Assembly (NCBI GenBank): GCA_947628315.1
Contig: CANQZJ010000002.1
Span: 16,545-80,544, forward strand
Source of the DNA: an uncultured Oscillospiraceae bacterium
GTDB lineage: Bacteria; Bacillota; Clostridia; Oscillospirales; Oscillospiraceae
Length of the DNA stretch: 64,000 nucleotides
Reading direction: 5' to 3'
Positions 32,714-33,512 of the stretch are shown piece after piece (within the stretch, counting starts at the first letter, position 1; every line of letters begins with the position of its first letter). The notes beneath the pieces are model-generated. The model saw only the letters and a list, made by a program, of their open reading frames with translations. It was not told the origin of the DNA and did no database searches. Position numbers and translations under genes: made by a program.

Positions 32714-32742
32714 TTGACTTCCTCCGTCAGAAATGGTAGAAT
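32714..32742 (+). promoter_or_regulatory. promoter TTGACT-N17-TAGAAT of sORF RNA
   Basis: -35 32714..32719, -10 32737..32742. Confidence 0.8.
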
Positions 32743-32807
32743 GCCGACGGAAAGGGTTCTGCCATAACGGTAGGCGGTCGGCCACTCCCCTGAGAGGGGG
32801 TGACCAT

Positions 32808-32891
32808 ATGCCCATCTCGATTACGTTTCATGTTTTCGGCTTGACCGTAACGGTACGTATAAAGAGGGACAACCGCCACCCGGCCAGGTGA
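32808..32891 (+). CDS. 27-aa mini-protein MPISITFHVFGLTVTVRIKRDNRHPAR
   Basis: ATG 7 nt after AGGGGG; stop lies inside 12-bp hairpin. Confidence 0.6.
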   Translation: MPISITFHVFGLTVTVRIKRDNRHPAR

Positions 32892-32926
32892 CGGTTGTCT
32901 AGTGAGTTAAACTAACTTCCAAACCT

Positions 32927-32962
32927 GGGCCGACCGCTTATCGGCGGGGCCCTTTCCTTTTT
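32927..32962 (+). terminator. intrinsic terminator of sORF RNA
   Basis: GGGCC GA CCGC TTATCG GCGG GGCCC TTTCCTTTTT. Confidence 0.75.
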
Positions 32963-32963
32963 C

Positions 32964-32992
32964 ATTATAACCTCGGATCGCTCCGGTGTCAA
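32964..32992 (-). promoter_or_regulatory. antisense promoter TTGACA-N17-TATAAT
   Basis: Perfect consensus hexamers with 17-nt spacer, fires into the sORF RNA 3' end. Confidence 0.85.
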
Positions 32993-32999
32993 GTCAAAT

Positions 33000-33194
33000 T
33001 CAAGGGCAGGATTCATCCCTCAATTCTTTTTGCTTCTTGTGCAGCAACTCTATGGACAATTCCCCCGCCAGCTTGAGCAGACTGTCGGCCATGACCCGCT
33101 CCACCGGCAGGTTCCCCGCCATCTCGCCCACTTTTTCGTAGAAGGTGTAGACCTCCGGCGGCACCAATAAGGTCACTTTTTTCATGGATTTCAC
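33000..33194 (-). CDS. small RHH-like protein
   Basis: KKVTLLVPPEVYTFYEKVGEMAGNLPVERVMADSLLKLAGE; GTG start after GGAGG. Confidence 0.6.
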   Translation of the reverse strand: MKSMKKVTLLVPPEVYTFYEKVGEMAGNLPVERVMADSLLKLAGELSIELLHKKQKELRDESCP

Positions 33195-33335: not shown

Positions 33336-33512
33336 ATGTCTTTTCAGCCGAAACCCACCAAGAGAAAGGTGGAAGCCGTCAATAAAAGCCTGTATCTGCC
33401 AAAAGTGATCGCGGAGCAAATAGACAAACTGGCCGCCGAAAACGGCACCAGCTTCAACAACATGGTGGTCAGCATGATCGAATACTGCCTGAAAGAGATA
33501 GAGGAGCAGTAG
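33336..33512 (+). CDS. small RHH-like protein
   Basis: 58-aa ORF absent from track; VNKSLYLPKVIAEQIDKLAAENGTSFNNMVVSMIEYCLKEIEEQ. Confidence 0.7.
   Translation: MSFQPKPTKRKVEAVNKSLYLPKVIAEQIDKLAAENGTSFNNMVVSMIEYCLKEIEEQ

Follow-up and report, generated by a model that had tools for sequence, protein, structure and literature searches.

A candidate type I toxin-antitoxin module family in Oscillospirales encoding a predicted β-hairpin peptide

Introduction

In the par/Fst module of Enterococcus, RNAs converge and overlap around a short peptide; Fst is a transmembrane (TM) helix, and the par RNAs have direct repeats and a bidirectional terminator in common. In bsrG/SR4 of Bacillus subtilis, the ribosome binding site (RBS) is closed by GC pairs, the antisense RNA lies at the 3′ side, and RNase III takes part (PMC6562991). 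The aapA/IsoA modules of Helicobacter pylori are multicopy and combine a toxin mRNA of ∼225 nt, which has a 5′-3′ long-distance interaction and hairpins sequestering the Shine-Dalgarno (SD) sequence, with an 80-nt cis-antisense RNA and a 30-residue peptide that needs its C-terminal KR (PMC6733600, PMC10537873). AapA1 is an α-helix validated by NMR, and, according to a review, the membrane type I toxins described to date are α-helical (PMC8309996). Type I modules of Clostridioides difficile (CD2517.1-RCd8 and others) comprise convergent toxin and antisense genes in multiple chromosomal copies (PMC6563280).

The locus described here lies between glyS and zapA in a stretch of 64,000 nucleotides from an uncultured Oscillospiraceae bacterium, the whole of which we call the window. 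With bsrG/SR4 and txpA/RatA of B. subtilis it shares a 3′-overlapping antisense RNA and a short peptide with a basic C-terminus, and with bsrG/SR4 also an RBS closed by few GC pairs, but its peptide is strand-like instead of a TM helix, and a strong 5′-3′ long-distance helix is central to its RNA. Its family resembles aapA/IsoA in such an interaction within the toxin mRNA, in the size of that mRNA, in SD sequestration by a hairpin, in a short cis-antisense RNA, predicted here, and in being multicopy; however, aapA/IsoA belongs to a distant phylum, homology has not been shown, similarity between the peptides is seen by eye only, and no homologous α-helical peptide is found, a β-hairpin being predicted for relatives of the window peptide. 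As in par/Fst, convergent overlapping RNAs surround a short peptide, whereas each RNA here has its own terminator and the ends of the mRNA are complementary. The C. difficile modules likewise come from Clostridia, with convergent genes and multiple copies, but their toxins have 34–59 residues with N-terminal TM domains, and many reside in prophages.

Results

Architecture of the locus

The putative sense and antisense promoters are convergent and lie 221 nt apart in the window sequence, and the ORF between them (Table 1) encodes MPISITFHVFGLTVTVRIKRDNRHPAR, followed directly by the stop codon. Both promoters, the ORF and the 3′ hairpin with its T-run are present where the initial annotation had placed them; its SD hairpin was likewise correctly located, but one arm had been written one G too long, the actual sequence being CACTCCC-CTGAGAG-GGGGTG. 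Two features had escaped it, that is, the antisense terminator hairpin inside the end of the ORF and the nearly perfect complementarity between the two ends, 5′ and 3′, of the sense RNA (GGAAAGGG...GGTCGGCC with GGGCCGACC...CCCTTTCC). A 1.9-kb region holds 5 promoter-like sites versus 0.7 expected, and 9 terminator-like sites versus 2.1 expected.

Table 1. Predicted features of the locus, in window coordinates.
Feature	Position	Strand	Basis or remark
Sense promoter TTGACT-N17-TAGAAT	32714..32742	+	10/12; position conserved in relatives; predicted start ∼32749
Predicted sense RNA, ∼215 nt	32749..32963	+	Ends inferred from promoter and terminator
5′ arm of long-distance 5′-3′ helix	32749..32782	+	Pairs with 32928-32957
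SD-sequestering hairpin, SD in 3′ arm	32783..32802	+	In almost all loci
27-codon ORF, toxin candidate, predicted β-hairpin peptide	32808..32891	+	pN/pS; AlphaFold2 model of relative
Predicted antisense (antitoxin) RNA, ∼100 nt	32858..32957	-	Covariance model R1
Antisense RNA terminator hairpin, 14 pairs, overlapping C-terminal codons and stop	32868..32899	-	Strand-biased stability
3′ hairpin/terminator with T-run, also 3′ arm of long-distance helix	32927..32962	+	Fold, covariation
Antisense promoter TTGACA-N17-TATAAT, perfect consensus	32964..32992	-	12/12

Two divergent small ORFs resembling ribbon-helix-helix (RHH) proteins occupy positions 33000-33194 (minus strand) and 33336-33512 (plus strand), with the palindrome GAAATTTTCAATGGTATATTCTATTGAAAATTTC between them, and the latter gives weak Arc/RHH matches (E ∼0.03). 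In the closest relatives, the gap between glyS and zapA is an empty site lacking the toxin-antitoxin-like element; the RHH-like pair is missing there too, and both may possibly have been inserted together.

Family and distribution

The genome to which the window belongs carries six copies of the β-peptide locus, of which the five outside the window were absent from the initial annotation. A scan of species genomes yielded 87 relatives, 80 of which were kept, and further searches resulted in a set of 109 distinct ORFs with full flanks from across the order, including a second subfamily (MRITLHIGxFTVTIIVK...). One peptide match (L111) was discarded since the layout is missing. The loci are phylogenetically non-independent, so that P values of the promoter counts over the 109 ORFs and of pN/pS are indicative only.

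Occurrence is patchy and multicopy: the peptide profile is positive in 22 of 396 genomes sampled from the order, corresponding to 16 of 168 genera, but in none of the 4 other genomes of the same genus within this sample, and the window's own genome is the sole positive in a class-wide sample of 392 genomes. Carriers include the cultured Anaerotruncus colihominis DSM 17241, Evtepia gabavorous and Oscillibacter valericigenes. Literature searches for the module family retrieved no description of it. Matches in viral collections are few. One sequence deposited as an unverified bacteriophage clone (MT835905.1) has flanks that by eye resemble bacterial housekeeping genes (dehydrogenase-, aminotransferase- and RNA methyltransferase-like).

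Promoters

An antisense promoter matching the consensus at 9 or more of 12 positions is found downstream of the stop codon for all 109 ORFs (6.5% of equally sized random windows have one) and matches at all 12 positions in 78 of them (random windows, 0.2%). The sense promoter is weaker (at least 9/12 in 88 and 12/12 in 16 of the 109); it is outscored by the antisense promoter at 80 loci and scores higher at 7. As the spacers between the hexamers are unrelated among copies, it is on the hexamers themselves that selection acts.

RNA structure

The sense RNA of the window locus folds with a minimum free energy of −103.8 kcal/mol (folding z −6.96). Across 36 divergent loci, the long-distance helix is considerably more stable when formed from a locus's own ends than from swapped ends (−44.1 vs −29.0 kcal/mol, z −16.5), and in 33 of these the sense RNA forms a more stable helix than its complement does, owing to G-U pairs (124/991 vs 41/924). 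The SD hairpin likewise co-varies (own vs swapped arms, z −5.8), and at 35/35 loci the minus-strand version of the hairpin at the end of the ORF is the more stable one, which is expected of an antisense terminator. By prediction, then, the covarying long-distance helix and the SD hairpin keep the primary toxin transcript translationally closed. A simple switch in which 3′ truncation frees the SD is not supported by folding, the SD being equally closed in full-length and 3′-truncated RNA (0.27 vs 0.26 unpaired). The 5′ motif GGCGGT (within 32749-32782) can also pair with AACCGCC at the end of the ORF (32868-32880), possibly as an alternative fold; L024, a locus without the 5′ motif, is the one that has CCGTCAC in place of CCGCCAC.

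The encoded peptide

Codons 2–18 of the ORF exhibit a pN/pS of 0.26 over the 36 divergent loci, compared with 1.49 and 2.34 in the shifted frames, and by this comparative measure the ORF is under purifying selection. Homologues lacking the ORF or carrying random substitutions in it would have spoken against the initial annotation; instead, the ORF is kept and its substitutions are non-random. Family members have 20–27 residues, are strand-like with alternating polar and hydrophobic positions, and share a core of 20 residues, M-P-I-T-I-T-(L/F)-H-I-F-G-Y-T-V-T-I-R-I-K-R. Because some members end at this core, ahead of the antisense hairpin, the NRHSAK/NRHPAR tail is taken to be partly a by-product of that hairpin.

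AlphaFold2 predicts strands at residues 3–9 and 12–18 for a relative whose alignment held 23 sequences (pLDDT ∼84), and at residues 2–9 and 12–19 for a divergent β-type relative (pLDDT ∼90). On the basis of these models alone, the peptide is predicted to be a β-hairpin. The maximum 15-residue Kyte-Doolittle mean of the window peptide is 1.53, as against 2.4–3.8 for TM-bearing relatives, and falls short of what a classic TM helix requires. Together, the models and the low hydrophobicity indicate that the hydrophobic α-helical TM segment typical of membrane type I toxins is lacking, and bear out the earlier impression that the peptide does not resemble α-helical TM toxins.

The PDB, searched by sequence and by the fold of the AlphaFold2 model, contains no significant match. 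Neither did the window locus reach the cutoff of any Pfam, NCBIfam or PHROGs entry, sub-threshold similarity being confined to phrog_4193 and YrzI (PF09501, 13.1 vs 23 bits; TIGR02413, 13.6 vs 47 bits), and the window peptide does not match Hol_Tox (PF16935). Searches of Rfam with the window locus gave nothing at gathering score or at E ≤ 1, and BsrG (RF01412) has no match in the window or in its own genome.

Other peptides on the same RNA chassis

For the antisense RNA, a covariance model (R1) was trained solely on β-peptide loci. It matches all six genome copies with E ≤ 1.1e-11 (the window copy being part of the training set) and gives 77 matches in the order, spread over 27 of the 396 genomes. 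Within the genome to which the window belongs, it points to a seventh element, with a weak E of 0.016 but the same layout and the ORF MEHDRRTKFLRFLVRLLVILWMMSCVVQKAY. R1 loci elsewhere in the order have short membrane-helix peptides at the position of the ORF, for example MDYIVIVLALLLLLIIAIKK and MTYSELFQYTLVIIGIVGLFIAASKKK, and those further out in the class have MISIFEALSLMIAFGMFVIALLEFTSKRK and its relatives. In 20 membrane-helix loci, the long-distance helix again co-varies (z −11.5) and is sense-biased in 19. Low-scoring matches without the layout (L189, L198, L199) were discarded.

The peptides of two loci, L192 and L195, score above the Pfam cutoff for Hol_Tox, which the window peptide does not match at all; in antisense RNA model, long-distance helix, SD hairpin and promoters these loci are nevertheless like the window locus. 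L195 also exceeds the Rfam gathering score for BsrG over its full length, if marginally (55.4 vs cutoff 55), while its R1 score is modest (E 5.9e-4, one genome), and it represents an intermediate that links R1 to BsrG. The type I layout proposed initially, with a small ORF, a sequestered RBS and a 3′-overlapping antisense RNA as in bsrG/SR4, is conserved in every intact copy, transcription and toxicity being inferred. It is common also to loci that encode peptides of a holin-like toxin family in Pfam, and among these loci is the one that matches Rfam BsrG.

Another β-like peptide family, MKRLTLTIQFDKFTVTIVIKKR, occupies the same chassis at L151, L153, L170 and L171, with tandem copies ∼400 nt apart at L170. 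On contig C194 of the window's own genome, a chassis copy (L126) with a helical cationic peptide adjoins an ORF (MQHTPKYKLNLIDPSDxFSxDPLNANATALETQL...) that also adjoins the C29 copy (L004).

About a dozen R1 matches are antisense-only remnants (11 of the 77 with a promoter), but none of the 109 intact ORFs lacks an antisense promoter. This is the pattern expected if the peptide is harmful alone, although the evidence is indirect. Orphan antisense RNAs with strong intact promoters and no ORF (L173, L174, L160, L164, L179:348-455 and others) might be stand-alone antitoxins or remnants.

Discussion

Since the same RNA pair carries ordinary membrane-toxin peptides in relatives, we consider it very probable that this is a type I toxin-antitoxin module whose toxin is unusual. 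Patchy, multicopy occurrence and the empty site in close relatives fit this reading as well. Points against it are the limited hydrophobicity of the peptide, the absence of above-cutoff family matches for the window locus, and the modest scores of the one intermediate leading from R1 to BsrG. Comparison among loci supports the selected ORF, the convergent promoters, the SD hairpin, the long-distance helix, the antisense hairpin and the chassis shared with Hol_Tox/BsrG-type loci; transcription, antisense action, toxicity and target are inferred. The shared chassis, which connects the window locus at the sequence level with established type I systems, is the strongest reason for naming the peptide a toxin, although toxicity data are lacking. 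Every defining feature of type I systems that could be assessed here is met except the helical toxin: a conserved small ORF that has an SD of its own, an antisense gene overlapping the toxin mRNA (with conserved promoter and terminator, transcription being inferred) and, by prediction, a translationally closed fold of the mRNA. Because the cutoffs of the corresponding Rfam and Pfam families are not reached, we classify the locus as a type I variant outside BsrG/Hol_Tox. The novelty lies in the peptide, for which a β-hairpin is predicted while the known membrane type I toxins are α-helical.

In the mechanism that we propose, the sense promoter would give rise to an mRNA of ∼215 nt with an inert fold, its ends paired in the long helix and its SD closed in the local hairpin, and the stronger convergent promoter to an antisense RNA of ∼100 nt, the 5′ end of which would coincide with the 3′ end of the mRNA and the terminator hairpin of which would fall in the final codons of the ORF. 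By pairing with the 3′ half of the mRNA, the antisense RNA would probably target it for decay by RNase III and keep it from refolding to a translatable form. By analogy with bsrG/SR4 and aapA/IsoA, the primary transcript would be inert and the antisense RNA would remove escapees. If the antisense RNA became scarce, through stress or because the locus is lost, mRNA that had been processed or refolded might be translated to a cationic amphipathic peptide that is probably membrane-damaging.

Alternatively, the product might be a small functional peptide without toxicity, for example a regulatory or membrane-binding one, whose mRNA is under cis-antisense control, that is, type I RNA logic without killing. 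It does differ from the described type I toxins (PMC8309996), its hydrophobicity is only moderate, and nothing is available on toxicity. We nonetheless regard this as unlikely, given that the same RNA chassis bears holin-like toxin peptides, that antisense-only remnants exist yet no ORF without an antisense promoter, and that the family is patchy and multicopy. That the six copies are dispersed and have matching ends, and that relatives show an empty site, would also suit a MITE-like mobile repeat, with GGAAAGGG...CCCTTTCC as terminal inverted repeats and the ORF incidental. The strand bias of the end pairing (33/36), which disfavours an inverted repeat acting at the DNA level, and the placement of the promoters outside the repeats, at fixed spacing and with unrelated spacers, led us to reject this very improbable reading, and the purifying selection on the ORF likewise stands against it. 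Consensus scans by themselves are weak evidence, and promoters and terminators might be matched in intergenic DNA by chance, but conservation in 109 loci and strong covariation refute coincidence.

Returning to a type I module as the preferred interpretation, it is tempting to speculate, and on balance we favour the view, that the antisense-RNA chassis of Clostridia is an exchangeable cassette, in which toxins of unrelated fold, α-helical holin-like ones and amphipathic β-hairpins, have replaced one another within a common framework of self-silencing mRNA and antitoxin RNA. The β-hairpin peptides would then represent a fold without precedent among described type I toxins, with C-terminal codons that double as the antitoxin terminator. 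The family would add an unannotated, multicopy type I module to ∼6–7% of sampled genomes in this order of gut bacteria, and the R1 covariance model detects such modules independently of the fast-changing peptide. Finally, a class of predicted β-hairpin peptides is linked to a chassis that also bears holin-like toxins, so that type I evolution through peptide exchange on an unchanged RNA regulator becomes amenable to direct testing.
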